This document shows, piece by piece, positions 7,420 through 45,363 of a DNA stretch of 64,000 nucleotides. The first letter of the stretch is position 1. Each line of letters starts with the position of its first letter. The DNA is from Ruegeria sp. Alg231-54 (GTDB lineage Bacteria > Pseudomonadota > Alphaproteobacteria > Rhodobacterales > Rhodobacteraceae). The translations under genes and the position numbers were made by a program. Under the pieces are notes generated by a model, which did no database searches, was not told the origin of the DNA, and worked only from the letters and a program-made list of their open reading frames with translations. The stretch lies in assembly GCF_900143525.1 (NCBI RefSeq), contig NZ_FREZ01000004.1:1-64000 (forward strand), read 5' to 3'.

Positions 7420-8073
7420 CTACATTGCCTCTAAGGTGTGGGCGAGGCCGTTTCGGATGTGATCCTCCAACAGCTTCTTGGCCGTGCCCGCGTCCCTGGT
7501 CAATGCGGCGTCGAACATTCCCTTGTGCTCCTTAACCGCATCTTCGCCACGATAGGTCAGTACGAGCATCTGATACCGCAGATATTTGTCGTAGATGATC
7601 GAGTGCAGGGACAGAAGGTTTTGGGAATTGCAGGCAGCGATCATCGCTTGATGGAACTCCCAATCATACCGCTTCCATGTTTCTTTCTCGGACTCGTCAC
7701 CCTTGAGAAGCTGCTGTTCCATAAGATGAAGCTTGTGGTGTGCGGCGACGAGATTCCCTTCCCAATCCGTGTCGCCGTTCGCAATGGACAGCTCCAGCGC
7801 GTGGCATTCCAACAGGACTCGCAGCTCTGATATCTCGGTCAGATCCTCGCGGGAGACCGGCGTAACCAGGAATCCCCGTTGCTCGGGCGCTTCGACAAAT
7901 CCGTCGCTGGCAAGCCTGTTCAGGGTTTCACGAAGTGTCGAAAGACTTGCCGAGTAGCGTTCCTTCAAGGCGTCCAGCTTCAGTTTGGAGCCGGGCTGCA
8001 ACTCTCCGAAAATGATATCCCGCTTGATGCGCTGGTAGGTGCTTGCACCAATCGTAGACGGCTGTTTCGCCAT
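7420..8073 (-). CDS. GntR-family regulator, FCD (FadR) subfamily
   Basis: A 217-aa regulator. The N-terminal winged helix-turn-helix (about residues 8-75) reads YQRIKRDIIFGELQPGSKLKLDALKERYSASLSTLRETLNRLASDGFV. The C-terminal FCD ligand domain includes LLECHALELSIANGD, the metal-type D..H pattern in YDWEFHQAMIAACNS and H-containing VKEHKGMFDAALTRD. FCD regulators usually sense organic acids or sugar acids and repress adjacent catabolic operons. The ATG at 8073 has GGGTGA upstream; a GTG three codons earlier is possible. It is divergent from the oxidoreductase at 8283, and a 30-bp inverted repeat lies between them. Confidence 0.88.
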   Translation of the reverse strand: MAKQPSTIGASTYQRIKRDIIFGELQPGSKLKLDALKERYSASLSTLRETLNRLASDGFVEAPEQRGFLVTPVSREDLTEISELRVLLECHALELSIANGDTDWEGNLVAAHHKLHLMEQQLLKGDESEKETWKRYDWEFHQAMIAACNSQNLLSLHSIIYDKYLRYQMLVLTYRGEDAVKEHKGMFDAALTRDAGTAKKLLEDHIRNGLAHTLEAM

Positions 8074-8143
8074 GCGTTTCACCCGATATTCTTAGTTTCT
8101 TCGTTCATTTAGCATTTTTCGCAGACGTCAGCAATCCAAACCG

Positions 8144-8282: not shown

Positions 8283-9365
8283 GTGTCAATGAACTTTCGC
8301 ATAGCCATTGTTGGCATTGGCCTTGTAGGACGCCGTCATGCAGACGCTATCCGAGCGTTGCGTCATGTCGATCTTGTTGCAGTTGTAGATCCCAGCGACG
8401 AAGGCCGTGCGTATGCCGTTGAGCACGGGGTGGCACACTTCGAAACCCTTAAGGAAATGCTCGCAAGTCAGACGCCGGACGGTGCTGTGCTCGCGACCCC
8501 GACGACGCTTCATGTGGAACAAGGCCTTACGTGTGTTCGACATGGGTGTGCCGTACTGGTCGAAAAACCGATCGCCGTGGAAGCTGCCGCAGCACTTGAG
8601 CTTGTCCAAGAAGCGGAGAAGGCCAATGTGCCGCTCATGGTCGGACATCATCGTCGGCACAACCCTCTGATTAAGTCAGCTAAGGAAGCCATTGTAAAAG
8701 GGAAGATCGGAGATGTTCGCGCGGTCCACGCAAACTGCTGGTTTTACAAACCCGACACGTATTTTGAGGCCGCGCCGTGGCGCAAGAAACCCGGTGCGGG
8801 GCCCATCTCGGTCAATCTTGTCCACGATGTTGATCTGCTGCGGTATCTGGCCGGCGAGGTTGTGACCGTACAGGCGCAGTCAGCTGCATCGAAGCGCGGT
8901 TATGACAATGAAGACGTTGCCGGGGCATTGTTGACGTTCGAAGGGGGAGCGATTGGGACAATAAGCGTGTCCGACAGCATCGTTGCTCCGTGGAGCTGGG
9001 AGATGACGTCTCAGGAATACCCAATCTATCCATCGACCACTGAGAGTAGTTACATGATTGGTGGCTCTCATGGGTCGCTATCTGTCCCCGATCTTCGACT
9101 TTGGGGCTACCAGGATGAGCAGAGGGACTGGTGGACACCAATCTCGTCAACGGCGCTAAAGAAGGGTGCCTCGGACCCATTGGTCAATCAACTCAGGCAC
9201 TTCGTTGACGTGGCTCGGCACGACGCGGAACCAATTGTGTCTGGGTGGGAAGGCCTGAGAACACTTCAAGTCATTGAAGCTATTCAAAATTCCTGCCGAA
9301 CTGGAGAGACCGTCCGGATAGAAAGTCTTCAACAAAATTCGAAAACGGAGGCGGCGGCAATATAA
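8283..9365 (+). CDS. Gfo/Idh/MocA-family NAD(P)-dependent oxidoreductase
   Basis: A 360-aa protein. The N-terminal Rossmann fold shows IVGIGLVGRRHADA (residues 9-22), and the family Lys is in VEKPIAVE (K95). The C-terminal alpha/beta domain carries ISVNLVHDVDLLRYLAGE with the usual catalytic-region His/Asp. The family oxidises sugars, cyclitols and related alcohols. The GTG start at 8283 is 6 bases after GGAAGGA; the ATG at 8289 is the alternative. It opens the catabolic locus, divergent from the GntR gene. A 17-bp palindrome overlaps its stop codon. Substrate unknown. Confidence 0.87.
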   Translation: MSMNFRIAIVGIGLVGRRHADAIRALRHVDLVAVVDPSDEGRAYAVEHGVAHFETLKEMLASQTPDGAVLATPTTLHVEQGLTCVRHGCAVLVEKPIAVEAAAALELVQEAEKANVPLMVGHHRRHNPLIKSAKEAIVKGKIGDVRAVHANCWFYKPDTYFEAAPWRKKPGAGPISVNLVHDVDLLRYLAGEVVTVQAQSAASKRGYDNEDVAGALLTFEGGAIGTISVSDSIVAPWSWEMTSQEYPIYPSTTESSYMIGGSHGSLSVPDLRLWGYQDEQRDWWTPISSTALKKGASDPLVNQLRHFVDVARHDAEPIVSGWEGLRTLQVIEAIQNSCRTGETVRIESLQQNSKTEAAAI

Positions 9366-9380: not shown

Positions 9381-9466
9381 TCAAAAAATCTTGCAAAATG
9401 ATCAAAATAGGTCAAAACTCGGAATCGTCAAAAAGGAAGCATCATGATGTCTCAGGGAGGAGCAAA

Positions 9467-10477
9467 GTGATTACCAAATTTACCCGACGGGCTGCTGTAT
9501 CAGCCCTGGTCGCAACCGGTGTACTGTTTAGCGCAACAAGTGGGGCGCTGGCGGAAGGCAAAGTACAACTACGCCTCGCAACATCAGGATCGGAGACCGA
9601 TCAGCGTTCGGTCGCTATGGCCGAAGTTTTTGCGCCCATGGTTGCCGATTTCGCCAGCTATGAACCCAGCTATAACGGTACAATCTTCGCTCAGGGCACC
9701 GAGTTGGACGCCCTCAGCCGAGGCAACCTGGAAATGTCGATCACTTCGGCGCAGGAACTGGCCCAGTTCTTCCCCGAGTTTTCGATCTTTACCGCAGGCT
9801 ATGTCCACCAGGACGCCGCGCATCAGGTGGCTGTCTTCAACGATCCCTTGATGGATGCCTTTAAGCAGAAGGCCGAAGAAGAACTGGGCGTCAAACTGCT
9901 GTCGGTCATGTATCTGGGGCGTCGTCAGGTGAACCTGCGCCAACCCAAGGACGAACTGACCGTCAGCACTCCGGCTGATCTGGAGGGTGTGAACCTGCGG
10001 ATGCCGGGCACAGATGCGTGGCAGTTCCTTGGTAAAGCGCTGGGTGCCGCCCCGACACCAATGGCGTTCTCAGAGGTTTACACAGCTCTGTCGACCGGTG
10101 CCGTTGACGGTCAGGACAACCCATTGCCGACCGTGGTTGATGCCAAATTCTACGAAGTGACTAATCAGATCGTACTGACATCGCACTTGGTTGATTTGAA
10201 CTATATCGCCATTGGCAAACAGGTTTGGGATGGGCTGACCCCCGAACAGCAAGCCAAGGTCCAGGAAGCTGCTGACGCAGCCGCTGAATCGGGTCGCCAG
10301 AAGCAGCTGCAAAAAGAAGAAGATCTGGTCAGTTTCCTCAAAGAACAGGGCATGGAAATCTACGAACCCGACCTCGCCGCGTTCCGCGATCAGGTACAAT
10401 CGATGTACCTGGACAGCGAATTTGCGGGCGCTTGGCCGGAAGGCGTGCTCGAGCAGATCAACACTCTGGGCAACTAA
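9467..10477 (+). CDS. dctP: TRAP transporter solute-binding protein (DctP family)
   Basis: A 336-aa periplasmic protein. The signal peptide is clear: VITKFTRRAAVSALVATGV followed by a cleavage site after GALA. The mature part has the family pattern, including YLGRRQVNLRQPKDELTVSTPADLEGVNLRMPGTDAWQ, where the Arg of LRMPG binds the substrate carboxylate, and GAVDGQDNPL. This predicts an organic acid or sugar acid ligand. The GTG start has GGGAGGAG just upstream. It is the first gene of a run reaching 18971. Confidence 0.92.
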   Translation: MITKFTRRAAVSALVATGVLFSATSGALAEGKVQLRLATSGSETDQRSVAMAEVFAPMVADFASYEPSYNGTIFAQGTELDALSRGNLEMSITSAQELAQFFPEFSIFTAGYVHQDAAHQVAVFNDPLMDAFKQKAEEELGVKLLSVMYLGRRQVNLRQPKDELTVSTPADLEGVNLRMPGTDAWQFLGKALGAAPTPMAFSEVYTALSTGAVDGQDNPLPTVVDAKFYEVTNQIVLTSHLVDLNYIAIGKQVWDGLTPEQQAKVQEAADAAAESGRQKQLQKEEDLVSFLKEQGMEIYEPDLAAFRDQVQSMYLDSEFAGAWPEGVLEQINTLGN

Positions 10478-10507
10478 ATCTGAGTAGCGAAGGGAGGGAG
10501 AACCCCA

Positions 10508-11083
10508 ATGAAAGCCTTCATCAAGGGGTTCTCCCGACTGACCGAAGCGATTGCCGGCGGGATGCTGGCGGCAATCTTCCTGATCTTCCTGCTGCAAATA
10601 CTTTTACGCTACTTCTTCACCCCCGCCGGATGGACGCTTGAACTCATCGGCATTCTTTGGGTCTGGGTGATCTTCTTCAGTTGCGCTTTCATAGTGCGTG
10701 AACGTGATCACGTGAAGTTCGACATCATCTACCTTTCGGTGCCGATGCGCGTGCGGCAGGTCTTTGCGATGCTGGCCGCCGCAGCGATCGTGGTCGGGAT
10801 GCTCTACAGTTTCCTGCCGACGTGGGACTACATTGACTGGATGAAAATCCGCAAGACATCGACTGTCCGCAATCCGTTCTCGGGCGAGAAGATACCGCTG
10901 CGGACCGTGTTCTCGATTTATGCCGTTTTCATGCTTGTTGTGGCGGCGCGCTACGGGTGGCTGTTCTTTGACATCCTGCGCAATGGGCCGCCAAAAACCG
11001 AACTTGAAATGGTCGTTGGGTACAACGTGGTCGACGACCATCCCCGTGTCGATGTGGAAGACGACGAGGACGCTGACAAATGA
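10508..11083 (+). CDS. dctQ: TRAP transporter small permease (DctQ family)
   Basis: A 191-aa inner-membrane protein with four predicted membrane segments (AIAGGMLAAIFLIFLLQIL, LELIGILWVWVIFFSCAFIV, a third at VFAMLAAAAIVVGMLYSFL and a fourth at VFSIYAVFMLVVAARYGWLFF). The family motif RERDHVKFDI is present. It pairs with the large permease, overlapping its start by 4 bases (ATGA), so translation is coupled. The C-terminal tail is acidic (DVEDDEDADK). Confidence 0.92.
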   Translation: MKAFIKGFSRLTEAIAGGMLAAIFLIFLLQILLRYFFTPAGWTLELIGILWVWVIFFSCAFIVRERDHVKFDIIYLSVPMRVRQVFAMLAAAAIVVGMLYSFLPTWDYIDWMKIRKTSTVRNPFSGEKIPLRTVFSIYAVFMLVVAARYGWLFFDILRNGPPKTELEMVVGYNVVDDHPRVDVEDDEDADK

Positions 11084-12375
11084 GTTTTGAACTTCTTTCC
11101 TGCCTGCTCGCTCTCTTTCTTCTGGCAGGCATCGGGACACCTATCGGCTATTCCATCCTCTTGGCCTCATTAGTGTACTTGGGCACGGCCGGACTAGACG
11201 TCGCTCTCGCAGGCGAAAAGATCCTGCAAGGCTTCTACAAAAGCACGATCCTGCTTGCCGTGCCTTTGTTCATCGTCGCTGCGAATATCATGAACGCTGG
11301 GTCGATCACGGACCGTCTGTTGAACTTCTGCGTCGCTGCTGTCGGTCGTTTCAAGGGCGGCCTCGGGCACGTAAACGTAGTCGCGTCTCTGATCTTTTCG
11401 GGTATGTCCGGTTCGGCCGTCGCGGATGCTGCGGGGATCGGCAAGATCATCATTGAGATGATGACCAAGGATGGCCGCTACAGCCGAGGTTACGCAGCCG
11501 CAATCACGGCGGCGTCGGCGACAATTGGCCCGATCATTCCGCCCTCGATCCCGATGGTGTTGTACGCGCTCGTTTCCAAGGCCTCTATCGGGTCGCTGTT
11601 CCTGGCCGGTATTCTGCCGGGCCTAATCATGGGCGTCGTCCTCATGGCGATGAACTACTATCTGGCCGGAAAGCGGAACTTTGCATTGGAAGATCCTGTT
11701 CCACTGCGAGAATTGCCGGCTAAAACCGCCAACGCGTTTCCGGCACTGCTGATGCCCGCCATCTTGCTGTACGGCATATATGGCGGTGTCACCACTCCGA
11801 CCGAGGCTGCAGCCGTGGCTGCATTCTACGCCCTGCTACTGGCAGCGTTGTTCTATCGCGCACTGACCTTCCGTGGCCTGTATCAAGTGTTTGTCGACAG
11901 CGCGCGCTCTTCCGCGGCCGTCGGGGTTGTCATTGGTGGCGCCTTCATTCTGAACTTCATCGTCATTCAGGAACAGATTCCACAGTCGATCTCGGCCTTG
12001 CTGGAGGGTTCGGATGTCAGCCCGATTGTGTTTCTGATCCTCGTCAACCTGCTGATCCTCGCGCTGGGATGCGTATTGGACGCAACGACGATTATCTTGG
12101 TGATCGTGCCTCTGTTCATCCCGACCTGCGAAGCGCTCGGGATTGATCTGGTACATTTCGGGGTGTTGGTCGTCGTGAACTCGATGATCGGTCTGATCAC
12201 GCCGCCCTATGGCATTCTACTGTTTGTGATCAACGCCGTGACGGACATTCCGCTGCGTGAAATCATCTCAGAAATCTGGGCCTTCCTCGCGGTTCTCATC
12301 TTCGCCTTGGTGATCATGATGCTGATGCCGGATCTGGTCCTGTGGTTGCCGCGTATGTTTGGATATCAAGGATAA
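11080..12375 (+). CDS. dctM: TRAP transporter large permease (DctM family)
   Basis: A 431-aa polytopic protein with about 12 membrane segments, the sodium-coupled transport subunit. Family signatures: GIGTPIGYSILLAS, FSGMSGSAVADAAGIGKIIIEMM, the AITAASATIGPIIPPSIPMV motif and FGVLVVVNSMIGLITPPYG. Length is normal. Its stop codon shares one base with the next start (TAATG), tying the importer to the catabolic enzymes. Confidence 0.94.
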   Translation: MSFELLSCLLALFLLAGIGTPIGYSILLASLVYLGTAGLDVALAGEKILQGFYKSTILLAVPLFIVAANIMNAGSITDRLLNFCVAAVGRFKGGLGHVNVVASLIFSGMSGSAVADAAGIGKIIIEMMTKDGRYSRGYAAAITAASATIGPIIPPSIPMVLYALVSKASIGSLFLAGILPGLIMGVVLMAMNYYLAGKRNFALEDPVPLRELPAKTANAFPALLMPAILLYGIYGGVTTPTEAAAVAAFYALLLAALFYRALTFRGLYQVFVDSARSSAAVGVVIGGAFILNFIVIQEQIPQSISALLEGSDVSPIVFLILVNLLILALGCVLDATTIILVIVPLFIPTCEALGIDLVHFGVLVVVNSMIGLITPPYGILLFVINAVTDIPLREIISEIWAFLAVLIFALVIMMLMPDLVLWLPRMFGYQG

Positions 12376-14261
12376 TGTGCCTCTCGGTTTCGACAACGTC
12401 GATCCCCGGTGATCTGGCCGAAAAACTGAGTGCTATCGCTGACGCGGGATTCGGGGGCGTCGAACTACACGAACCGGATTTGACCGCTTTTGACGGGTCG
12501 CCATCGCAAGTCCGCGAAATTGCATCAGATCTCGGCCTGAAGATTTGCCTGCTACAACCCTTCCATAACCTTGAAGGCCAGGCCGACGCCGGACGGGAGC
12601 GCGCCTTTGATCGGCTGAAGCGTAAACTCGACCTGATGAGCGAGTTGGGAACGGAATTACTGCTTATCGGGTCTGCCTTCGAGGTCGATGCCGCTGCGAC
12701 CGAAGAACAGGTAGTCGCAGATCTTGGCGAAGCGGCCCAGATCGCGAAAGAGATGGGATTGCGTCTGGCCTATATGGGCTTGCCGTGGTCAGATCTTATT
12801 CACTCGGATGAACAGGCGTTAGGCGTCGTTGAAGCTGTCGACAGCCCTCATCTGGGGTTGGTTTTGAACTCATTCTTCTCGCTCGCTGACGGGTCTAAAC
12901 CCGCCCGCCTTCGAGACATTCCCGGAGAGCGGTTGTTCCATGTGCAACTGTCCGATGCACCCCGGCTTGAGATGGATATCCGCAGGCTCAAGCGGCACTT
13001 CGGGCTTTTGCCCGGTCTGGGATCGCTGAACCTTGCGGGCTTCGTGCGGGTGCTGTCCCGCGCCGGTTACAAGGGGCCGTGGTCCATCGCGCGCGTCAAC
13101 GAAGCGGCCCCGCAACCGGGTGGTCGAACACTGGCCCGAGACAGCTACAGATCGCTGGTCAATCTGCTGGACGAGGTGTCGCGGACCGAGCCGGGAACCG
13201 ATTTCGGCATCCCGAACCTGCCGGAACGCGTTTACGCGTCAGGCTTTGAGTTCGTCGAATTTACAGCCGACGAAACAAGCGGCGCGCAGCTGGCAGATAT
13301 GCTGTCAGCAATGTGTTTTCGAATGGAGCGAAAACACGTCGCCAAGTCCGTCGAGCTGTGGCGGCAAGGCGCGATCAACATCGTTGTGAATACCGAAAAG
13401 GAAGGTTTTGCCCATTCGGCCTTCCTGGGTCACGGCCCTTCCGTTTGTGATATGGGGTTGCGTGTCAAAGATGCGGATCAGACGGTTCAGCGCGCCAACG
13501 CGTTGGGCGCGCCGAATTTCTCACAGCCGGTGGGAACAGGGGAACTGGATATCCCGGCCATTCGGGGCGTTGGTGGCAATGTTGTCCATTTCATCGATGA
13601 GAAATCCGATCTGCATCGGGTGTGGGATATCGAGTTCGAGCCAGTCGCCAAGACCAAAGCGATCCAGCCCGCCGGTCTGCGCCGCATCGACCATCTGGCA
13701 CAGACGATGCGTAACGATGAGATGCAAAGCTGGCTGCTCTATTACATCTCGACTTTTGAGATGGCAAAATCCCCGATCGTGAACGTTGCCGACCCGTTGG
13801 GTGTTGTGCAAAGCCAAGCCATCGAAAGCCCCGAAGGCGAAGTGCGTTTAAACCTGAATGGTGCAGTTGGGCGTCGAACACTGGCGGCTTCATTCCTTGA
13901 AGGCGGTTTTGGTGCCGGTGTTCAGCACATCGCCTTCCAGTCGGACGACATATTTGAAACCTCAGCCCAATTGCGGAAGTCCGGTTTTCCCAGCCTGTCC
14001 ATCCCAGAAAACTACTACGCTGATCTGCAAGCGACATTCGGGTTAAGTGAAGACCTGATCGCCCAAATGCGCAGGGATAACATACTCTACGATCAGGCGG
14101 CGGGTGCCGAGTACTTTCAGATCTACAGTCGCCCCATTTTTAACGGCTTTTTCTTTGAAATTGTAGAGCGCCGAACTGCTTACGCCGGCTATGGCGCGCG
14201 TAACGCTGCGTTTCGATTAGCGGCGCAAACGCGACACCACGAGGCGGAAGGAACAACCTAA
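12375..14261 (+). CDS. Dehydroshikimate dehydratase-HPPD-type fusion with degenerate dehydratase site
   Basis: A 628-aa protein collinear with bacterial QuiC1/QsuB: an N-terminal TIM-barrel dehydroshikimate dehydratase domain (about 1-270) and a C-terminal HPPD-like VOC domain (about 285-620). In P. putida QuiC1 the metal ligands, as I recall, are E134, D165, Q191 and E239, with H168 in the site. Here these positions read M134 (AYMGLPW), N165 and F168 (LVLNSFF), Q191 (FHVQLSDAP) and A239 (WSIARVN); only Q is kept. The HPPD iron triad is intact: H440 (RIDHLAQ), H518 (GVQHIAF) and E595 (FFFEIVERR). So it is probably not a working dehydroshikimate dehydratase; an oxygenase or other VOC activity is more likely. 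Start at 12375 chosen for AAGGA upstream. Stop is one base from the next gene. Confidence 0.82.
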   Translation: MCLSVSTTSIPGDLAEKLSAIADAGFGGVELHEPDLTAFDGSPSQVREIASDLGLKICLLQPFHNLEGQADAGRERAFDRLKRKLDLMSELGTELLLIGSAFEVDAAATEEQVVADLGEAAQIAKEMGLRLAYMGLPWSDLIHSDEQALGVVEAVDSPHLGLVLNSFFSLADGSKPARLRDIPGERLFHVQLSDAPRLEMDIRRLKRHFGLLPGLGSLNLAGFVRVLSRAGYKGPWSIARVNEAAPQPGGRTLARDSYRSLVNLLDEVSRTEPGTDFGIPNLPERVYASGFEFVEFTADETSGAQLADMLSAMCFRMERKHVAKSVELWRQGAINIVVNTEKEGFAHSAFLGHGPSVCDMGLRVKDADQTVQRANALGAPNFSQPVGTGELDIPAIRGVGGNVVHFIDEKSDLHRVWDIEFEPVAKTKAIQPAGLRRIDHLAQTMRNDEMQSWLLYYISTFEMAKSPIVNVADPLGVVQSQAIESPEGEVRLNLNGAVGRRTLAASFLEGGFGAGVQHIAFQSDDIFETSAQLRKSGFPSLSIPENYYADLQATFGLSEDLIAQMRRDNILYDQAAGAEYFQIYSRPIFNGFFFEIVERRTAYAGYGARNAAFRLAAQTRHHEAEGTT

Positions 14262-14262
14262 T

Positions 14263-15135
14263 ATGAAGGCCGCACTAATCGGACAAGGGATTTCTGGCTC
14301 CATGACGCCTGAGATGCACGAGGCGGAGGGCCGGGCGCAGGGTATCGATCTGAGCTACGGTAGGATCGACACGGCAAAAGAGCCATTTCGTGGAATGTCG
14401 GTCGCTGATTTACTACATTATTCCGTTGAATTAGGCTGTGCGGCGGTCAACGTGACACACCCCTACAAAGCGTCGGTCATTGATCATCTCGATGAGCTTT
14501 CCAAGACTGCTGAGGAGCTTCAAGCTGTCAACGCGGTGGTTTTTTGTGACGACCGAATGGTTGGCCATAACACCGATTACATAGGTTTCCACAGTGCCTT
14601 CGGAGATTTTTTGGGATCATCGAAGACTGAAACGGTTCTCATGTTTGGTGCTGGTGGCGCGGGCAGTGCAGTCTCTTTGGCTTTGCTTGATTCAGGTGTT
14701 CGAGATCTGGAGATCATCGATCCTGACTTCCACCGAGCGCAGGCGCTGGTCAGTCGACTAAAGGTCTTGCGCCCTTGTGCGAAGCTTCAGGGTTCCCCCT
14801 CGATTTCGTTGGAACGGGTCAAATTTGTGGACGGAGTGGTCAATGCAACACCGCTCGGGATGGATAAGTACCCCGGGTCGGTAATTGATCCATCATTGTT
14901 GCGGCCGGATGCTTGGGTGGCAGATATAGTATATTTCCCGCTCGAGACACATCTTCTGAGCAGCGCCCGCACAACTGGGTTAAAAGTGATGAATGGTGCT
15001 GGAATGGCAGTTCATCAGGCTGCAGCGTCTTTTGAAATCTTCACCGGCTGCACCGCCTCAATCAGTCGTCTTCAAAACGTTTTCGATTCACTTCGTCAGC
15101 AGCGCATGCGCGAGTTTAGAGGTGCAACGGTATGA
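14263..15135 (+). CDS. Shikimate/quinate dehydrogenase-like oxidoreductase
   Basis: A 290-aa AroE-fold protein. Seen: GQGISGSMTPEMHEAE (substrate-binding SxT region), VNVTHPYK with catalytic Lys69, VNAVVF (N90), GHNTDYIGF (catalytic Asp105), the dinucleotide loop GAGGAG (129-134), VNATPLGM and GMAVHQAAASFEIFTG. Biosynthetic AroE usually begins GNPIxHSxSP; the different N-terminus and the catabolic neighbours point to the catabolic branch that oxidises shikimate, quinate or related hydroxycyclohexane acids with NAD(P). It begins one base after the preceding stop and overlaps the next gene by 4 bases. Confidence 0.85.
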   Translation: MKAALIGQGISGSMTPEMHEAEGRAQGIDLSYGRIDTAKEPFRGMSVADLLHYSVELGCAAVNVTHPYKASVIDHLDELSKTAEELQAVNAVVFCDDRMVGHNTDYIGFHSAFGDFLGSSKTETVLMFGAGGAGSAVSLALLDSGVRDLEIIDPDFHRAQALVSRLKVLRPCAKLQGSPSISLERVKFVDGVVNATPLGMDKYPGSVIDPSLLRPDAWVADIVYFPLETHLLSSARTTGLKVMNGAGMAVHQAAASFEIFTGCTASISRLQNVFDSLRQQRMREFRGATV

Positions 15136-15947
15136 CAAACGACGAGCAAGCTATCCGCCAATGGTGGCGTACCTCCATCATCGACATGAAGCCCGGTCAG
15201 ATCGCTTTTCGTGGCAACGCCATAGAGGACCTGATCGGGAACGTATCTTTCCCGCAGATGATCTGGCTGATGGTGCGGGGTGATCTGCCCAGCGACGCAC
15301 AAGCGCGCTTGTTCGAAGCTGCTTTGGTCGCAGGCGTGGATCACGGCCCACAGGCTCCCTCAATCGCGGCTGCGCGTATGGCCGCCACCTGCGGGGTAGG
15401 TCTCAATAATGCGATGGCGACTGCGGTGAACATGCTGGGCGACGTGCACGGCGGGGCAGGAGAGCAGTGTGCAGAGCTGTACTATGATATCGCAGTCCGC
15501 ATGGATGCGGGAGCTTCGCTGAATGACGCTGTTCGGGATGGCTTGGACAGTTGGCGCGAGACCTACGGCAAGATCGTATCGGGCTTTGGTCACAGGTTTC
15601 ACAAGCCTGTCGACCCACGCGCACCACGATTGATGAAACTTGTTCGTGATGCGACGGCAGTAGGCGCAGTATCTGGCCAGTTTGCCGATATCGGAGAAGA
15701 GGTTCAAGCCGAACTCGGTCGTCAACGCGGCGGTCGGCCAATTGCCATGAATATCGACGGCGCGACAGCTGTGATCTTCTGCGAACTTGGCTTTCCTGCG
15801 CCCTTGTCACGAGGGCTGTTCTGCCTGTCCCGCTCGGTCGGAATACTCGCCCACGCTTGGGAGCAAATGGGGCAGGGCGGTCGGAACAAAGGGCCGATGC
15901 CCCCGAATTACTTACCCCTCTACGAAGACAGGAATGATGACACGTGA
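15132..15947 (+). CDS. Short citrate-synthase-fold protein (citryl-CoA lyase-like)
   Basis: A 271-aa member of the citrate synthase superfamily, much shorter than citrate synthase (about 430 aa) because it lacks the N-terminal region. The catalytic triad is kept with nearly canonical spacing: H106 (GDVHGGAGEQ), H154 (GFGHRFHKPVDPR) and D209 (MNIDGATAV). Short proteins of this kind are usually named citryl-CoA lyase and cleave or form beta-hydroxyacyl-CoA thioesters. In this locus it may split an acyl-CoA made by the acylating aldehyde dehydrogenase at 20021. That role is inference. It overlaps its neighbours on both sides. Confidence 0.8.
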   Translation: MTNDEQAIRQWWRTSIIDMKPGQIAFRGNAIEDLIGNVSFPQMIWLMVRGDLPSDAQARLFEAALVAGVDHGPQAPSIAAARMAATCGVGLNNAMATAVNMLGDVHGGAGEQCAELYYDIAVRMDAGASLNDAVRDGLDSWRETYGKIVSGFGHRFHKPVDPRAPRLMKLVRDATAVGAVSGQFADIGEEVQAELGRQRGGRPIAMNIDGATAVIFCELGFPAPLSRGLFCLSRSVGILAHAWEQMGQGGRNKGPMPPNYLPLYEDRNDDT

Positions 15948-17124
15948 GACATCGAAATCCTTCCGGGTCGGCCTTATTGGCTGTGGTCGTATCAGCGATA
16001 TTTATCTAAAGACACTATCCAATTTTTCGAGCGTCGAGGTCGTGGCTTGTACATGCCTTGATCCTTCGGAAAGCCGCGCCAAAGCGGATCAATACGGTGT
16101 CGCCAAGGCCTGCACGCCAGATGAAGTGTTTGACGATCCGACGATTGACTGCGTTCTGAATCTGACAATTCCGGCGGCGCATGCCGAAATCAGCCTGCGC
16201 GCGTTGGAGGCGGGCAAGCACGTCTATTCCGAAAAGCCGCTGGTTATGAATCGAACAGATGGTAAGGCGATCCTGCACATGGCCTCTGAAAAGGGGTTAC
16301 TGGTCGGTTGCGCACCCGACACGTTTCTGGGCGGTCGCTGGCAGACCGTTCGGCGCTTGATCGACGAGGGTGCCATTGGCAAACCGACAGGGGTTTTTGC
16401 CCATGTCGGGACCCACGGGACGGAGCGCCACCATCCCAACCCGGATTTCTACTACCAGGCCGGTGGCGGGCCCTTGCTGGACCTTGGGCCATACTACCTG
16501 ACCGCCATGATTTTCTGTCTTGGTCCCGTAGACCGGGTCGCCGGAATGGCTCGGCGTACTTTCGACAAAAGGATGATCGAAAACGGCCCTCGCAACGGTG
16601 AATGGATAGATGTCGAGGTCGACACGCACTCCCTAAGCCTGCTGCAGTTCTCTTCCGGAGCTATAGGGTCGATGACCATGAGCTTCGACGTCTGGGACAG
16701 CGAAACTCCGCGGTTCGAGATCTACGGTGAAAACGGCACCATCAGCATCCCTGACCCTGACCCGGTTCATGGTGCCAATATCTTTCAGGGGGATGTCTGG
16801 TTGAAGACACGGGACACCTCGCGCTGGTCTCATCAGCCCCGTCCAACTGGTCGCGAGGACTGGCAGGTGGTCGAAAACAAACATGGATTCAATGAAGACA
16901 GTCGCGGGCTCGGCCTTTTGGATCTGGCTCTGGCGGCACAAGAAGGACGCCAACCCCGTGCAAGTGGAGCGCTTGCATACCACGTTTTCGAGGTTATGGA
17001 CGCGATCGAACGGGCGCCGAAATTTGGCGCCTATCAGACAATAGAAAGCCGGTGCGAAGCGCCGACGCCTTTGCCGGTCGATTTCCTTAACGACGAGAGA
17101 AAGGAATTGGTTCATGCCGATTGA
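15934..17124 (+). CDS. Gfo/Idh/MocA-family oxidoreductase
   Basis: A 396-aa protein with Rossmann motif VGLIGCGRISDIY (residues 12-24), Lys101 in YSEKPLVMN and the C-terminal domain motif GGGPLLDLGPYYLTAMIFCLGP. The start is placed at the first of two adjacent ATGs at 15934, overlapping the previous gene; a much longer upstream open frame would run antiparallel to nothing but inside the lyase gene and is not credible. It resembles NAD-dependent sugar or inositol dehydrogenases. The next gene starts 11 bases before its stop. Confidence 0.86.
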   Translation: MMTRETSKSFRVGLIGCGRISDIYLKTLSNFSSVEVVACTCLDPSESRAKADQYGVAKACTPDEVFDDPTIDCVLNLTIPAAHAEISLRALEAGKHVYSEKPLVMNRTDGKAILHMASEKGLLVGCAPDTFLGGRWQTVRRLIDEGAIGKPTGVFAHVGTHGTERHHPNPDFYYQAGGGPLLDLGPYYLTAMIFCLGPVDRVAGMARRTFDKRMIENGPRNGEWIDVEVDTHSLSLLQFSSGAIGSMTMSFDVWDSETPRFEIYGENGTISIPDPDPVHGANIFQGDVWLKTRDTSRWSHQPRPTGREDWQVVENKHGFNEDSRGLGLLDLALAAQEGRQPRASGALAYHVFEVMDAIERAPKFGAYQTIESRCEAPTPLPVDFLNDERKELVHAD

Positions 17125-17788
17125 GACACTCGACTTTGCTCAGCCATTCTTTCGCGTCCAGCACATCAGTGATGAAGACAGAATATCTGTCGAGGGTCGC
17201 GCTATCGTCCTTAACCTTGGGCGGCTGGATATCTCGCTCGAGGATCAGGCCGTTGCACCGCTTTCGTCTGTTATCGTGCAAGATAGCTCACTCAAAGGTG
17301 TGGAACGCGCAGTAATTGTCCACGGTTTTGACGCTCATGCCGATGAGAACGAGTTGTTCGCATGGGTGAAAGATACATGGCCATCTGCTTTTGATGTTCG
17401 CCAAGAGGAGCGTCTGCGCGGTGTCAGCCACTACATGTCGCCAAAGGTCTTCGTGGGTAACGTTGGACTGACCATGTACCATTCCGGTTCGGTCCCATTG
17501 AATGTCGGATTGCACAAGGATCATCCGTTCTGCCCGGTACCGGGGTTTCGCGAAGTGCATACGCAAATCGTAGGCTTTGGCAAAATGCAGCAATGCCGTG
17601 AGCGGGATGTTGAAACCCTTTACCTCGAAGAATTCATGGCCCCTGGCACGACGCACAAACCGATGTATGACGCCGAATGCAACTATCCCTGGCATCAGTA
17701 CGAGACGATTACCCCCAGCATTTTCATGGCAGTGGAAATGCTGCCGGAAGGCGTACGGGTCCCGGAAATGGAGATTCAGAATGGCTGA
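17114..17788 (+). CDS. Uncharacterised protein with cupin-like histidine pattern
   Basis: A 224-aa protein I cannot assign. The C-terminal half is rich in potential metal ligands: H134 and H137 (LHKDHPF), H149 (EVHTQIV), E172/E173 (LYLEEFMAPGTTH, ending H181) and H194 (YPWHQYET). The alternation of beta-strand-like segments with a His...Glu...His pattern resembles cupins, including some sugar isomerases. No signal peptide. It is overlapped on both sides (11 and 8 bases) by oxidoreductase genes, so it is surely expressed with them. It may act as isomerase, dehydratase or dioxygenase on the pathway compound. Confidence 0.75.
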   Translation: MPIETLDFAQPFFRVQHISDEDRISVEGRAIVLNLGRLDISLEDQAVAPLSSVIVQDSSLKGVERAVIVHGFDAHADENELFAWVKDTWPSAFDVRQEERLRGVSHYMSPKVFVGNVGLTMYHSGSVPLNVGLHKDHPFCPVPGFREVHTQIVGFGKMQQCRERDVETLYLEEFMAPGTTHKPMYDAECNYPWHQYETITPSIFMAVEMLPEGVRVPEMEIQNG

Positions 17789-18971
17789 AAGACTTTTACC
17801 CCAAGACCTGAACTTCGACGGCCCTTTCCCCCGGTTGTCTCGCCGTTTGCGGCTGGGCGTTGTTGGAGGTGGACGTATTTCAGTCACGCAAGCAACGGCC
17901 GCGCGGATGACCGACCGGTGGGAGGTCGCCGCAGGCGCGCTCAGTTCTGACGCTGCGCGCAGCAAGGCACGTGGGGCCGAGTGGTATCTGCCAGCAGACA
18001 GGTGCTATGCGTCATTCGACGAGATGGCACAGGCAGAGGCGGCGCGCCCGGATGGCGTAGATGCCGTAATGATCACTACCCCGAACCACGTTCATTTCGA
18101 AGCGGCCAAAGCGTTTCTGGATGCGGGCATTGACGTGTTGTGCGACAAGCCCCTGACCAACGAAGTCGCCGAAGCCGAGGGGCTTGAGGAGATTACCGCG
18201 CGCACGGGACAGGTCTTTGCCGTCGGATATGCGATGTCGTGCTTTCCAGTGATCCGGCAAGCTAGGCAAATCGTGGCCGACGGAGCTATCGGAAAAATCA
18301 ACCAAATACATGTTGAATTTATGCAAGACTGGATGACGCCCGAAGATGTAGCCGATGCGCCTCATGTAAAGTGGCGGCTGGACCCAAAGATTTCTGGCCC
18401 GACCAGTTGTGTCGGCGATATCGGCACCCATGCCGCGCATCTGGCCAGTTTTGTCTCGGGCCTGCCCTTGACCGACCTGCGGGCCGAGTTTCATGTCTGC
18501 GGCGCACCAAAGCCTTTGGAAGACACGGTGTTCATATTCACCCGTTACCAAAATGAAGTCCCAGGAACCTTGATGGCAACACGACTTGCCCCCGGAAACC
18601 GGGGTGGGTTGCGCCTGCGCATATTCGGGAACGAAGGAGGCCTCGAGTGGGACCTGGAGAACTCGGAGCAGCTGAAGTTCAATCGGTTCGGTGAGCCGGA
18701 TCGTATCATCAGCCGAGGTCACGGGCATGGCATCGGCCGCGGCGCAGAACGTCTGATCCGTACCGCGCGCGGCTTCCCTGAAGGGATTATCGAAGCCTGG
18801 GCCAACCTCTATACGGAATTTGCCATGGCCGTAGCCGCGCGTCGGGATGGCGTTACCGTCCCGGCCGATTGGCTTGCCTATCCCAGTGTCGAACAAGGCG
18901 CAGACGGTGTCCGATTCATTGACGCCTCTGTGCGCTCTCACCAGTCCGGAGGGGAATGGGTCACTCTCTAA
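17781..18971 (+). CDS. Gfo/Idh/MocA-family oxidoreductase
   Basis: A 396-aa protein with an unusual 20-residue N-terminal lead before the Rossmann motif LGVVGGGRISVTQA (residues 25-38). The family Lys is in LCDKPLTNE (K123); the C-terminal domain includes GPTSCVGDIGTHAAHLASFVSG with the catalytic Asp/His pair. The start ATG overlaps the previous stop by 8 bases. It is the third member of the family in this locus, differing enough from the other two that three distinct oxidation steps or substrates are likely. It is the last gene of the block begun by dctP. Confidence 0.86.
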   Translation: MAERLLPQDLNFDGPFPRLSRRLRLGVVGGGRISVTQATAARMTDRWEVAAGALSSDAARSKARGAEWYLPADRCYASFDEMAQAEAARPDGVDAVMITTPNHVHFEAAKAFLDAGIDVLCDKPLTNEVAEAEGLEEITARTGQVFAVGYAMSCFPVIRQARQIVADGAIGKINQIHVEFMQDWMTPEDVADAPHVKWRLDPKISGPTSCVGDIGTHAAHLASFVSGLPLTDLRAEFHVCGAPKPLEDTVFIFTRYQNEVPGTLMATRLAPGNRGGLRLRIFGNEGGLEWDLENSEQLKFNRFGEPDRIISRGHGHGIGRGAERLIRTARGFPEGIIEAWANLYTEFAMAVAARRDGVTVPADWLAYPSVEQGADGVRFIDASVRSHQSGGEWVTL

Positions 18972-19076: not shown

Positions 19077-19125
19077 GATTGCGTATGATGAATTTTAGAT
19101 TCGCAGACACATGGAGCTGTCGTTC

Positions 19126-20040
19126 ATGGTGAAACCCGAAGAGGCAGGCGCAAGCCCCTCTCTCTATTCCTTGGCGCATCTGACGCTGATTGGCTGCACG
19201 CCGCCCGAGCTGGTCTATATAGCCGCCCGCGCCGGTTACGATGCCGTCAGTCCTCGGTTCATTCCGATGCATGTGCCCGGTGAATTCACTCAATCTCCAA
19301 TCGACAAGGCACAGGTGCAGGCCACCAAAACTGCTCTCTCTACCACCGGCTTGAAAGTGCTCGACGTCGAGCTCGCGCGCATCACCGAAGATGTCGACCC
19401 GCGCAGTTTTGAGCCTTCGTTGGAGATCGGCGGGGAACTGGGCGCCAAGCGCATGATCATGAGCGCGTGGACCAACACCCGCGATGATCGTGACTTTCTG
19501 ATCGACGTCTATTCCGAGACCTGCGAGTTGGCAGCACCTTATGGGCTGACGGTGGACCTGGAGTTTCCAAGTTTTTCACGCCTGCGCACTCTGGATGAGG
19601 CGCTCGATATTGTCCGTGCCTCCGATCAGCCCAACGGCGGTATTCTGGTCGACACGCTCTACCTGCACCTCAGCCGTGTGGATCTGGGAGAACTGTTGCA
19701 CGTCCCATCGGAGTTGTTTCATTTCCTCCATATTTCCGATTGCCTGCCCGGCATCGCCGATACGCGCGAGGGCATGATCCAGCTGGCCCGTGATGCAAGG
19801 TTGTACCCTGGCGAAGGTTGGATTGATTTCACCGGCATCATCGAACGGATGCCACCCGTCGACTATTCCATCGAACTGCCCAACCAAAGCCGCGTTGCCG
19901 AGTTGGGATATGAAGAACACGCGCGTCGCTGTCTCAGCCACGCCAAGCGAACATTCGGCGAGGCGCGATCGCAGCGCCGCATGCCCGATTCAGCAATTCT
20001 AAAATACCAAGAGGATAATCATGGGCAAAGAGCTCACTGA
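19126..20040 (+). CDS. Sugar phosphate isomerase/epimerase-like TIM-barrel protein
   Basis: A 304-aa protein of the xylose-isomerase-like TIM barrel family. Likely metal ligands are kept, unlike in the fusion protein at 12375: E in VDLEFPS, D in ILVDTLYLHL, H in HFLHISDC and E in YSIELPN. This predicts a working isomerase, epimerase or dehydratase on a polyhydroxy substrate. The ATG at 19126 follows GGAG by 9 bases; an upstream ATG at 19111 lacks such a site. Its 3' end overlaps the start of the aldehyde dehydrogenase gene by 20 bases. First gene after the second palindrome. Confidence 0.83.
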   Translation: MVKPEEAGASPSLYSLAHLTLIGCTPPELVYIAARAGYDAVSPRFIPMHVPGEFTQSPIDKAQVQATKTALSTTGLKVLDVELARITEDVDPRSFEPSLEIGGELGAKRMIMSAWTNTRDDRDFLIDVYSETCELAAPYGLTVDLEFPSFSRLRTLDEALDIVRASDQPNGGILVDTLYLHLSRVDLGELLHVPSELFHFLHISDCLPGIADTREGMIQLARDARLYPGEGWIDFTGIIERMPPVDYSIELPNQSRVAELGYEEHARRCLSHAKRTFGEARSQRRMPDSAILKYQEDNHGQRAH

Positions 20041-21430
20041 AAACGACCGACAACTCGCGGCCGATATGCTGGCGCGCGCCCGCGCGGCCATGGCCGAAAT
20101 CGAGGATTGGGATCAGGACAGGCTGGACCGCCTGTCTCAGGCCATCGCGTGGTATGCGGGGAACGAGAAAACCTTCACGCGTCTGGCCCAGCAGGGCGTG
20201 GACGAAAGCGGTATCGGAGATCGTGAAGGGCGTCCTGCCAAACGGTTCAAAATCCACATGGTGCTGCGTGATGTCCTGCGCACTCCTTCGACCGGTATCG
20301 TCGAAGTGGATGAGGAAAAAGGACTGGTTAAATATGCCAAACCTGCCGGTGTGATCGCGTCTCTGATCCCCATGACCAATCCAGCGATGACACCACCGGT
20401 GACCGGCGTTTCCGCCGCCAACGCCCGGAATGCGGTCATCTTCAGCCCGCACCCGCGAACCGCTCATACCACCTTCGAAATGGTCGAGGTCATGCGTGCA
20501 GCTTGTCGTGCTGCCGGTGCCCCCGAGGACTTGTTTCAATCCATTCGCAAACCGTCGATCCCATTAACGCAACATCTGATGGAGATCTGCGACCTGACTT
20601 TGGCTACGGGCGGCAAACCCATGGTAAAAGCGGCGTACAGTTCAGGGCGTCCAGCCTATGGTGTCGGCGCGGGCAATTCATCTATTGTCATCGATGAGAC
20701 AGCCGACTTGGACATCGCCGCTCAGAACACACGCATTTCGAAGATGTCCGACTTTGGCTCGGGTTGTTCGGCCGACGGTAACATCATTATCCAGCGTTCG
20801 GTCTACGACTATATGATCAAGGCGCTTGAGGCCGAAGGCGGGTACCTGTGTTCGGACGAAGAGAAGGCCACGCTCGAAGCGGCCATGTGGGATGAGAAGG
20901 GCAACCGTACCTTCCCGACTATCGCTTGTCCGCCTCAGCAAACGGCAAAGGTCGCCGGATTCTCGATCCCCGAAGATCGCAAATTCCTGATGGTCGAAAA
21001 TCAGGGGCAAATCGGGCCGCAGCACAAGTTCTCCAAGGAAAAATTGACAACGCTGATGGCGCTCTATCACTTTGATACATTCGATGACGCGCTGGAAACG
21101 GTCAGTCAGATCTATAACACGGGCGGCAAAGGCCATTCCTGCGGCATCTACAGCCACAATGACGATCATATCGATCGGCTCGCGCGTTTGGCTCCGGTCA
21201 GCCGCATGATGGTGCGACAGCCTCAGTCCAAGGCCAATGCAGGCGCCTGGACCAATGGCATGCCCATGACCAGCAGCCTGGGTTGCGGCATCTGGGGCGG
21301 CAACATCACCAATGAAAACGTCACCTTGAAACATATGATGAACTACACTTGGGTCAGCCGCCCGATCCCGGAGGATCGCCCCTCGGAGCCGGACCTGTTC
21401 GGTGAGTTCTACGGACAGGAGGTCGCGTGA
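20021..21430 (+). CDS. CoA-acylating aldehyde dehydrogenase family protein
   Basis: A 469-aa protein of the AdhE/EutE-like branch that converts an aldehyde plus CoA and NAD(P)+ to an acyl-CoA. The catalytic Cys is C249 in SDFGSGCSADGNII, at the place of the Cys in ICASEQ of AdhE. PMTNPAMTP and ATGGKPMVKAAYSSGRPAYGVGAGNS are typical cofactor-binding stretches. The named family that fits best from memory is sulfoacetaldehyde dehydrogenase (acylating), but no sulfonate gene is nearby, so the substrate is open. The start overlaps the preceding gene; its stop overlaps the next ATG. Confidence 0.83.
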   Translation: MGKELTENDRQLAADMLARARAAMAEIEDWDQDRLDRLSQAIAWYAGNEKTFTRLAQQGVDESGIGDREGRPAKRFKIHMVLRDVLRTPSTGIVEVDEEKGLVKYAKPAGVIASLIPMTNPAMTPPVTGVSAANARNAVIFSPHPRTAHTTFEMVEVMRAACRAAGAPEDLFQSIRKPSIPLTQHLMEICDLTLATGGKPMVKAAYSSGRPAYGVGAGNSSIVIDETADLDIAAQNTRISKMSDFGSGCSADGNIIIQRSVYDYMIKALEAEGGYLCSDEEKATLEAAMWDEKGNRTFPTIACPPQQTAKVAGFSIPEDRKFLMVENQGQIGPQHKFSKEKLTTLMALYHFDTFDDALETVSQIYNTGGKGHSCGIYSHNDDHIDRLARLAPVSRMMVRQPQSKANAGAWTNGMPMTSSLGCGIWGGNITNENVTLKHMMNYTWVSRPIPEDRPSEPDLFGEFYGQEVA

Positions 21431-24708: not shown

Positions 24709-24727
24709 CACCCGATCCTTTCCTGTC

Positions 24728-26167: not shown

Positions 26168-26270
26168 TCGGCGTCCTCCCATCGAATGGCAATCAGATTT
26201 GGTTCACCGAGGGTGACCCCTCAGTGTTGGTGCTGGTTTCGGTTGTTCTGTCGCTCAGCGGAAAAGATGT

Positions 26271-30201: not shown

Positions 30202-30425
30202 ACACCCCAAACAATACTGTGAGTATCGAATTGAGATTGCCTGTTGCATTTTAGCAATGGGCGAGCCGTACGTCCAATAAGGCGAGCTTAAAATAGATAA
30301 TCTCCTTAATCTTGTGTTTATTCTATTCCGAAGTGAGATGGGGAAATTTGAATTGTAGGTTGCCGTTCTACGCGAACGCAGCTTGCCCTCAAATATTGTG
30401 GCTAAGTCGTGTGTGGGGTGCAAGA

Positions 30426-44661: not shown

Positions 44662-45363
44662 CTAGGCGTTAAGTCCCGGCATCTGGTGGATTGGATTGAC
44701 GATGAATCGATCTGGTCCTGAAGTCCAGATTTTGCAGATGTATTCGCATGGCGTGAGATCGCTTAGTGCCTTCAAACGACGGGCGTAGTTGTAGGCATCG
44801 AGGAAGTCGGCCAAGTGCGGGCGAAGCTGGTCGTGGTTTTCGTAGTGATACCGCTTGACGGTTGCGTCCTTGATGGTGCGGTTCATGCGTTCGACCTGAC
44901 CGTTGGTCCATGGGTGGTTCGGCTTTGTCAGACGATGTTCAACCCCGTTGACCTCGCAGATCATGTCGAACCGCATCGGCCTGGAATAGATAGTGTTCCG
45001 GTTCCGGGGTTGCTCTGCGAACTGGATGCCGTTGTCAGTCTAGATGGTGTGGATACGGTAGGGCACCGCTTCCAGAGGGTGCTCCAGAAACTCCCAAGCC
45101 GTCTTTCTGTTTGCCTTTTCTACCAGTCGGGCCACGGTGAACTTGCTGGTTCGGTCAATGGCTACAAAGAGAAAGAGCTTGCCGTCGGCGGTCCGGAGTT
45201 CGGCGATGTCGATATGAAAATAGCCGATTGGATACCGCTTGAACTTCTGCCGCTTCGGCTTGTCCCCATCCATATCAGGCAGTCGTGAGATGCCGTGTCG
45301 CTGCAAACAACGATGCAATGAAGATCGTGTAAGATGAGGAATGGAGGGCTGTAGAGCATATAG
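44662..45363 (-). pseudogene. IS481-family transposase, C-terminal remnant
   Basis: Starts inside the LysE frame at LYALQPSIPHLTRSSLHRC, then GDKPKRQKFKRYPIGYFHIDIAELRT (first catalytic Asp), LFLFVAIDRTSK. A TAG at 45040-45042 follows YRIHTI; the frame resumes with TDNGIQF (second Asp) and HPWTNGQVERMNRTIKD (Glu), ending MPGLNA. The N-terminal domain is absent. The TAG and missing start make it inactive. Confidence 0.82.

Follow-up and report, generated by a model that had tools for sequence, protein, structure and literature searches.

A two-domain QuiC-like protein of Ruegeria with an apparently dismantled dehydratase barrel and a candidate iron oxygenase domain

This report concerns P0001 (also called DSDx), a two-domain QuiC-like protein encoded within a 64,000-nucleotide stretch of DNA from Ruegeria sp. 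Alg231-54 (contig NZ_FREZ01000004.1, positions 1 to 64,000 of the forward strand), referred to below as the window. The explanation we favour, at a probability of roughly 0.58, is that P0001 joins a pseudo-dehydratase barrel, now a scaffold, to a functional non-haem iron oxygenase, and that it acts in a route which would open a quinate-like ring without aromatising it. Sequence comparison shows that the active site of the N-terminal barrel has been lost, that this loss has a single origin, that the constraint on the two domains is reversed, and that the operon has exchanged its partners. We infer that the barrel now serves as a scaffold and oligomerisation module, and that the C-terminal domain binds Fe(II) through H440, H518 and E595 and catalyses an O2-dependent reaction whose substrate is alicyclic, polar and carboxylated. 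An initial annotation of this DNA had already proposed an oxygenase on a dead barrel and had leaned on the intact triad; that interpretation is partly supported, and the emphasis moves from the triad to the constraint reversal and the exchanged operon.

The barrel and its dehydratase site

P0001 has the architecture of QuiC and QsuB, a triosephosphate isomerase (TIM) barrel fused to an HPPD-like domain, and the claim that it aligns with QuiC1 of Pseudomonas putida (PDB 5hmq) along its whole length is borne out (E 2.9e-145). Its AlphaFold2 model has a predicted local distance difference test score (pLDDT) of 89.3 and a template modelling (TM) score of 0.90 to 5hmq. The gene starts with the ATG at 12375, overlapping the end of dctM by one base. 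A reading as a pseudogene or frameshift was rejected, since full-length relatives keep the frame open and omega, the ratio of nonsynonymous to synonymous divergence, is far below 1 in both domains. No second two-domain QuiC was found in the window's genome, which holds a separate HPPD in addition to P0001.

Judged from the alignment, the dehydroshikimate dehydratase site of the barrel has been lost. The passages of PMC7442255 on the active site print ten residues for QuiC1 and QsuB: R64, L97, E134, L136, D165, H168, Q191, S206, R210 and E239. Seven of these positions are altered in P0001. The four substitutions named in the initial annotation (E134M, D165N, H168F and E239A, with Q191 kept) all stand, R64H, S206K and R210G are further losses, and L97, L136 and Q191 are the only published site residues that remain. 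With the site dismantled, a label of quinate catabolism by way of dehydroshikimate dehydratase is very probably wrong, as that annotation had warned.

Eight polar site residues (64, 134, 165, 168, 191, 206, 210 and 239) were scored across 133 aligned rows. All eight are present in 46 rows, none to two in 87 (a count that includes two HPPDs and six partial or frame-broken rows, L085, L021, L087, L101, L121 and L129), and three to seven in none; the label "canonical", as used below, is defined by these eight residues themselves. The NCBIfam QuiC equivalog model scores P0001 at 535 bits, below its cut-off of 1200. This score was dropped as proof of divergence because the canonical-site proteins L107 (686) and L108 (657) miss the cut-off as well. 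The prospect that other acidic residues had taken over the metal site was checked by column conservation only: no substitute Asp or Glu becomes conserved, and a shifted metal site was rejected for that reason.

Parts of the dead barrel are nonetheless well kept. N165 and F168 are conserved within the long form of the dead clade, and N165, K206, H189, R240 and Y258 are each conserved in 91-96% of its 45 rows. H189, Y258, N219 and R229 are present in all 16 short-form rows too; these four, conserved in both dead forms, are not the commonest residues in canonical QuiC, and H189 is the single newly conserved His. Of the polar columns listed for the barrel, D194 and R259 show no variation in any group. 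Together, H189, N219, R229, Y258, D194 and R259 may fit structural or interface roles.

The same conservation could be read differently, with N165, K206, H189, R240 and Y258 making up a new site that needs no metal and serves as an isomerase, lyase or binding site in a barrel that was re-tooled rather than lost. The high conservation of these residues in the long form, the presence of H189 and Y258 in every short-form row, and a barrel omega that excludes free decay are in keeping with such a site. The short subclade (16 distinct rows) speaks against it, since these proteins share the C-terminal domain and the operon core but are some 45-50 residues shorter, lack positions 206 and 210, and have lost Q191 in most rows. 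In the model of one of them (L091; pLDDT 88.4) the eight barrel strands are retained and 552 residues align to 5hmq (Z 38.2), while the helix after P0001 strand 4 and the loop bearing positions 206-210 are missing. Given also that the evolutionary rate of the barrel is about double that of the C-terminal domain, re-tooling appears improbable.

Distribution and origin of the dead-barrel clade

Twenty of 37 genus genomes, the window's own included, carry a dead-type gene, although a contig break splits the gene in one carrier (G028), whose barrel sequence did not enter the analysis; two others (G006 and G013) carry a 46%-identical QuiC. A scan of the genome collection kept 80 loci (L051-L130), of which 61 are dead type, several of them partial, and 19 canonical. 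The hosts of the dead type are mainly Ruegeria, Aliiroseovarius, Cognatishimia, Pelagimonas, Roseibium/Labrenzia, Loktanella, Octadecabacter and relatives, plus a small number of Rhizobiaceae or unassigned genomes from metagenomes; the clade thus belongs mostly to Roseobacter-type and Stappiaceae genera. The closest named loci to P0001, L051-L069, are 80-96% identical and mostly from Ruegeria. No literature on the dead-barrel clade or its operon was found among open-licence papers searched with narrow terms.

The dead barrel appears to have arisen once. The QuiC alignment and tree suggested at the outset were run, and in a tree built from 79 rows of the C-terminal domain, barrel columns excluded and bootstrap not settled, all 33 dead-barrel rows fall into a single clade (100/100) that is sister to 24 canonical alphaproteobacterial rows, so that one change of state is enough. 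L163, a divergent operon member whose barrel keeps Q191 alone among the site residues, joins the dead clade on a long branch in a quick tree (34 rows; Shimodaira-Hasegawa-like approximate likelihood ratio 99), with no extra change of state. L120, L121 and L129 are metagenome assemblies that look frame-broken or truncated; L120 stands inside the short counts, and L121 is labelled "short" in the tree only through gaps. At L121 10001-11853 and L129 2183-3100 the fusion gene is split or truncated at its N-terminus, which may reflect assembly error or loss of the barrel.

Reversed constraint between the two domains

The sequence comparisons indicate that constraint has flipped: the barrel is the slow half in canonical QuiC and the fast half in the dead clade, where the C-terminal domain is the better conserved. 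The ratio of nonsynonymous divergence in the barrel to that in the C-terminal domain, dN(N)/dN(C), has a median of 0.55 in canonical QuiC (36 pairs, range 0.40-0.78) and of 2.10 in the short dead form (45 pairs, range 1.52-3.20); it is 2.04 between Ruegeria and Aliiroseovarius, Cognatishimia or Pelagimonas (10 pairs) and 1.58 within Ruegeria (21 pairs, 0.56-4.15, the closest pairs not being uniform), the pairs in these sets not being mutually independent. Mean percent identities by bands of C-domain distance agree. Canonical pairs average 53.4 in the C-terminal domain and 65.7 in the barrel in one band, and 65.1 and 78.1 in another; the corresponding values are 82.8 and 67.1 for the long dead form, and 77.0 and 58.2 for the short. 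Among tree pairs picked by hand, some of which may share branches, similarity is higher in the barrel than in the C-terminal domain for 13 of 14 canonical pairs and for 0 of 13 dead ones. The counts of domain identity and residue conservation leave out L085, L021, L087, L101, L121 and L129 and the HPPDs L002 and PfHPPD. Omega is low in both halves, with barrel medians of 0.07-0.17 in the dead groups, so the barrel would still be needed as a body.

The HPPD-like domain

The fold of the C-terminal domain and its 2-His-1-Glu site match those of HPPD in structure comparison and alignment. H440, H518 and E595 are indeed present, as first noted, yet the triad is no special sign of P0001 and by itself proves nothing, because canonical QuiC keeps it too: it occurs in 131 of the 133 aligned rows, QuiC1 and canonical relatives included, the exceptions being the canonical L038, which reads H-Q-E, and L101, which ends before the triad. 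The wider set of H440, S480, N495, Q517, H518, Q582 and E595 is invariant in 61 of 61 distinct dead rows. QuiC1 has His at both 517 and 582, and Gln is found there in 41 and 42 of 46 canonical rows, respectively. Position 493, two residues before the conserved N495, is Asn in 61 of 61 dead rows, Thr in 25 of 25 rows of the sister QuiC clade, and Pro in HPPD and QuiC1; it looks like a switch of the specificity type.

There is also some indication of the kind of substrate involved. In nearly all rows of the QuiC family, position 611 of the C-terminal helix is Ala or Val, 614 is Arg, and 615 is Leu, Ile or Met. P0001 itself has A611, R614 and L615, against Phe, Leu and Phe in the genome's own HPPD, whose Phe residues at the positions equivalent to 611 and 615 we take to clamp the aromatic ring. 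Loss of the clamp together with R614 would therefore indicate a polar, anionic substrate rather than 4-hydroxyphenylpyruvate, which is an unlikely substrate for P0001 because the genome has a separate HPPD and the clamp positions are Ala, Arg and Leu. That P0001 is a true HPPD was rejected: it scores 204 bits, under the HPPD equivalog cut-off of 277, and the aromatic clamp residues are missing.

An operon with exchanged partners

The operon of the window runs in the order gfo1, dctPQM, the P0001 gene, aroE, cit, gfo2, u224, gfo3, tim, aldh and tpp, tightly packed, with a GntR regulator divergent from it (Table 1). Gene content, called with identity thresholds set in the script, was counted in 56 dead-type loci (54 of the 61 among L051-L130, chosen by length above 9 kb and coverage, plus L163 and L164) and in 16 of the 19 canonical loci; L067, L085, L087, L088, L101, L103 and L129 (dead) and L113, L115 and L122 (canonical) were left out. 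The dead-type loci hold cit, gfo1, dctP and dctM in all 56 cases, gntR in 55, tim in 51, aldh and tpp in 50 each, gfo2, u224 and gfo3 in 36 each, and aroE in 21. In canonical loci cit, tim, aldh and tpp are never found, and aroE occurs in 10. Seven dead-type loci are incomplete for the set of cit, tim, aldh and tpp, and four of these (L078, L080, L099 and L121) are cut short by the end of a contig.

Among the 16 canonical loci, nine have the make-up of an ordinary quinate/shikimate cluster: the TRAP genes dctPQM, a type II dehydroquinase, quiC and mostly aroE. A GntR homologue occurs in six of the 16. The dehydroquinase, sought with one tblastn query, was detected in those nine loci and in no dead-type locus. 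Two further loci, L177 of Loktanella salsilacus (with pcaF nearby) and L179 of Chelatococcus, are annotated with the same quinate set, dehydroquinase included, and have the site intact. The DctM proteins of those nine canonical loci are 54-59% identical to that of the window, while the nearest other DctM in the window's own genome is 41% identical; the imported compound is therefore probably of the same kind. All told, the dead-clade operon looks like a quinate operon minus both dehydratases and plus a new lower pathway, and neither dehydroquinase nor dehydroshikimate dehydratase was found intact in dead-type loci.

The genes that the two kinds of operon have in common, TRAP and sometimes GntR and AroE, are what one would expect if P0001 were still a dehydroshikimate dehydratase, of altered mechanism, in catabolism from quinate to protocatechuate. 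Such a role is nevertheless very improbable: the acids equivalent to the metal ligands (E134, D165 and E239) and H168 are gone, the dead-type loci show no dehydroquinase, and protocatechuate dioxygenase beta is absent, over cut-off, from the window's genome and present in 6 of 20 operon carriers.

Of the new partners, cit is closer to citryl-CoA lyase (6hxp, 149 bits) than to the best citrate synthase (85 bits) in a PDB search. Its relatives elsewhere (51-69% identical) adjoin a family III coenzyme A (CoA) transferase in 8 of 12 regions by NCBIfam and in a ninth, L170, by Pfam; such a gene is not shown in L173, L175 and L176. Three of the regions also carry TctA/TctC tricarboxylate transporters. 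These neighbourhoods would fit a citrate-like thioester and the logic of citrate to citryl-CoA to acetyl-CoA. The cit relatives with CoA-transferases in L165-L172 and L174 (e.g. L165 8055-8813), and also G000:C11 in the window's genome, may represent a widespread module for citrate-type uptake and cleavage.

The stand-alone barrel tim keeps E151, D181, H207 and E255 in at least 97% of 54 rows, a set that presumably resembles that of IolI. It also resembles the site set given for AsbF, Glu142/Asp172/His198/Glu253, in the relevant part of PMC9324987. Since tim keeps this AsbF/IolI-like set, an active barrel would be supplied in trans, which in turn makes the fused C-terminal domain the natural candidate for the O2-dependent step.

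The small protein u224 (224 residues) belongs to no family in Pfam or NCBIfam, and nothing in the PDB matches it below E 0.22; the L161 copy likewise has no Pfam family. It has many conserved His and Glu residues (H106, H123, H134, H137, H149, H181 and H194) and looks cupin-like by eye. It co-occurs with gfo2 and gfo3, and is present also in the operon of G235, which has no fusion protein.

Table 1. Coordinates of P0001, its predicted functional residues and the operon genes in the window
Feature	Position	Strand	Basis or remark
P0001 (DSDx), two-domain QuiC-like protein	12375..14261	+	628 residues plus stop; coding part 12375-14258
N-terminal xylose-isomerase-like TIM barrel, residues 1-280, dehydratase site predicted lost	12375..13214	+	Pfam PF01261; site states; strands in model
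H64 replacing active-site R64	12564..12566	+	alignment
M134 replacing metal ligand E134	12774..12776	+	alignment
N165 and F168 replacing D165 and H168	12867..12878	+	alignment
Q191, sole survivor among eight polar site residues	12945..12947	+	alignment
K206 and G210 replacing S206 and R210	12990..13004	+	alignment
A239 replacing metal ligand E239	13089..13091	+	alignment
C-terminal HPPD-like VOC domain, residues 286-622	13230..14240	+	Pfam PF14696 and PF00903; fold match to HPPD
H440, predicted Fe ligand	13692..13694	+	alignment
N493, two before conserved N495	13851..13853	+	residue states across rows
H518, predicted Fe ligand	13926..13928	+	alignment
E595, predicted Fe ligand	14157..14159	+	alignment
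R614, near-invariant Arg of C-terminal helix; Leu in genome's own HPPD	14214..14216	+	alignment
GntR/FCD regulator	7420..8082	-	family assignment
gfo1, Gfo/Idh/MocA dehydrogenase, IolG-like	8286..9365	+	Pfam/NCBIfam
TRAP transporter: DctP 9398-10477, DctQ 10508-11083, DctM 11080-12375	9398..12375	+	family assignment
AroE-type shikimate/quinate dehydrogenase	14263..15135	+	NCBIfam; 21/56 dead-clade loci
cit, citryl-CoA lyase-family enzyme	15132..15947	+	NF004864, 433.3 bits against cut-off 261; best PDB match 6hxp
Optional module: gfo2 15937-17124, u224 17114-17788, gfo3 17787-18971	15937..18971	+	each in 36/56 dead-clade loci
tim, stand-alone TIM barrel, conserved E151-D181-H207-E255	19111..20040	+	Pfam, alignment
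aldh, acylating aldehyde dehydrogenase, SauS/EutE-like	20021..21430	+	NCBIfam
tpp, thiamine pyrophosphate (TPP)-dependent enzyme, acetolactate synthase superfamily	21427..23211	+	Pfam/NCBIfam

A proposed route and the points against it

The operon suggests a sequence of steps in which the TRAP system would import a quinate-like acid, the Gfo/Idh dehydrogenases and/or AroE would oxidise it, and the intact tim barrel would isomerise the product. The C-terminal domain of P0001 would then cleave the ring to a C7 2-oxo acid such as 4-carboxy-4-hydroxy-2-oxoadipate, which on paper matches the product of cleaving a doubly oxidised quinate ring with O2 (C7H8O6 + O2 = C7H8O8). From there the TPP enzyme may decarboxylate the 2-oxo acid to citryl semialdehyde, the acylating aldehyde dehydrogenase may convert this to citryl-CoA, and cit would split the thioester into acetyl-CoA and oxaloacetate. 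The aldehyde dehydrogenase and the TPP enzyme would thereby take the place of the CoA-transferase found beside cit relatives, and are the set expected for conversion of a 2-oxo acid to an aldehyde and on to an acyl-CoA. The tertiary carbinol carbon of quinate would end up at the centre of citrate, which would make the dehydroquinase and dehydroshikimate dehydratase steps unnecessary. Taken as a whole, from quinate-like acid to acetyl-CoA and oxaloacetate, the pathway is a tentative proposal with the odds against it.

The upper part could be quite different if the C-terminal domain instead cleaved protocatechuate or gallate made elsewhere in the cell, in an extradiol-type reaction feeding the same lower leg. 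Gallate cleavage gives oxalomesaconate, one hydration away from 4-carboxy-4-hydroxy-2-oxoadipate, which counts for this alternative. Set against it, the operon genes include no hydratase or pyrone hydrolase family, and the domain has no aromatic clamp. Degradation of protocatechuate by this domain was indeed suggested earlier, as cited in PMC7442255, but in the assays described there QsuB left protocatechuate unchanged, the listed mixture containing Mg and no added Fe. We regard cleavage of either aromatic compound as quite improbable.

Several findings weigh against the favoured oxygenase and its route, the QsuB assay among them. No biochemical activity has so far been established for the C-terminal domain of QuiC or QsuB. 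The divergent L163 has the triad intact and Ala rather than Asn at 493. The roles of cit, aldh and tpp rest on family names, and these names are loose for aldh and tpp, which lie below every cut-off among the matches listed; the CoA-transferases beside cit relatives are likewise assigned at family level, below all specific cut-offs. Three dead-type loci (L094, L096 and L097) have no tim, aldh or tpp within 10 kb and no contig end to account for this. The minimal operon has one dehydrogenase, and the proposed chemistry requires two. LigK, which offers an alternative fate for the intermediate, passes its cut-off in 3 of 38 genomes of the genus, and each of these carries the operon. PcaH is over cut-off in 14 of the 38; as a test of the pathway the distribution of LigK and PcaH is weak, and it was read as no more than the lack of a consistent link.

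A further difficulty is G235. Its operon includes the regulator, the transporter, gfo1, cit, the module gfo2-u224-gfo3, tim, aldh and tpp, and its whole genome gave no match to P0001 at E<=0.001. The protein must therefore be replaceable, or its step dispensable or not central. As a separate observation, an aminomethyltransferase-fold protein lies nearby in the same genome (L161); its best NCBIfam match is dimethylsulfoniopropionate demethylase (191 bits against a cut-off of 410).

In a rival reading the C-terminal domain is also non-catalytic, and the whole protein acts in a structural or regulatory capacity, perhaps as an assembly platform or a metabolite sensor for tim or a dehydrogenase. 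The absence of known activity in QuiC1 and QsuB and the one operon without the gene are in its favour. So is the proposal in PMC7442255 that the domain promotes oligomerisation; the pertinent passages of that paper and of PMC9324987 either give the domain no known role or suggest a structural one. A purely structural partner does not readily explain why the three Fe ligands and Q517, Q582, S480 and N495 are invariant in 61 of 61 rows, why the domain is under stronger constraint than the barrel, or why position 493 is so cleanly distinct from the sister clade, and we consider it unlikely. The oxygenase on a dead scaffold, as the initial annotation had it, fits the comparative tests except for the G235 operon; what is not supported is the intact triad as a distinguishing mark, or 4-hydroxyphenylpyruvate as a likely substrate.

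Comparison with known systems

QuiC1 of P. putida and QsuB of Corynebacterium glutamicum have the same two-domain architecture as P0001, and QuiC1 also shares its fold over the whole length and the same Fe-type triad in the C-terminal domain. Unlike them, P0001 has lost the dehydratase residues and shows the reversed domain constraint, and its operon has no detected dehydroquinase and the new partners cit, tim, aldh and tpp. HPPD (PDB 1cjx) resembles P0001 in the fold of the C-terminal domain, the 2-His-1-Glu triad and the equivalents of Gln517, Gln582, Ser480 and Asn495, but P0001 is about 32% identical to it, is fused to a barrel and has Ala611, Arg614 and Leu615.

Canonical quinate-shikimate operons (for example L098, L108 and L177) share with the window a homologous TRAP transporter, AroE and a QuiC-type gene. 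They have dehydroquinase and an intact QuiC, and should aromatise their substrate to protocatechuate, whereas the operon of the window has neither. The pathway of myo-inositol catabolism (IolG, IolI/IolE, IolD) acts on a ring polyol and likewise combines a Gfo/Idh dehydrogenase, a TIM-barrel isomerase and a TPP enzyme; to this the operon of the window adds the oxygenase-like fusion, the acylating aldehyde dehydrogenase and the citryl-CoA lyase relative.

Other features of the window

Downstream of the operon, on the opposite strand (23695-26182, -), lie alpha/beta hydrolase and glutamine synthetase-like genes; no homologues of these were seen in the loci listed, many of which end near there. 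Homologues of aldh on plasmids are all below 60% identity and were set aside as uninformative. Farther along is an open reading frame of 4414 residues (30312-43556, +) with glycine-rich repeats and, by eye, an autotransporter beta-barrel-like C-terminus; GC content and GC skew rise across it. A LysE-family open reading frame (45040-45960, -) has a C-terminal third that looks transposase- or integrase-like by eye, suggesting an insertion junction.

Implications

The broader proposal, of an undescribed marine alphaproteobacterial route in which a quinate-type acid is opened oxidatively, with the HPPD-like half as the ring-cleaving oxygenase and the carbon leaving through 4-carboxy-4-hydroxy-2-oxoadipate, citryl semialdehyde and citryl-CoA, is doubtful at present. 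If it is true, the HPPD-like domain of QuiC proteins would have a function assigned to it for the first time. The dead clade is a natural experiment in which the dehydratase half was apparently given up and the HPPD-like half held more tightly, so that the HPPD-like half can be studied alone. The names "dehydroshikimate dehydratase", "quinate catabolism" and "HPPD" would mislabel dozens of genomes, given that 61 of 80 loci are of the dead type, and the operon points to a testable pathway for ring acids.

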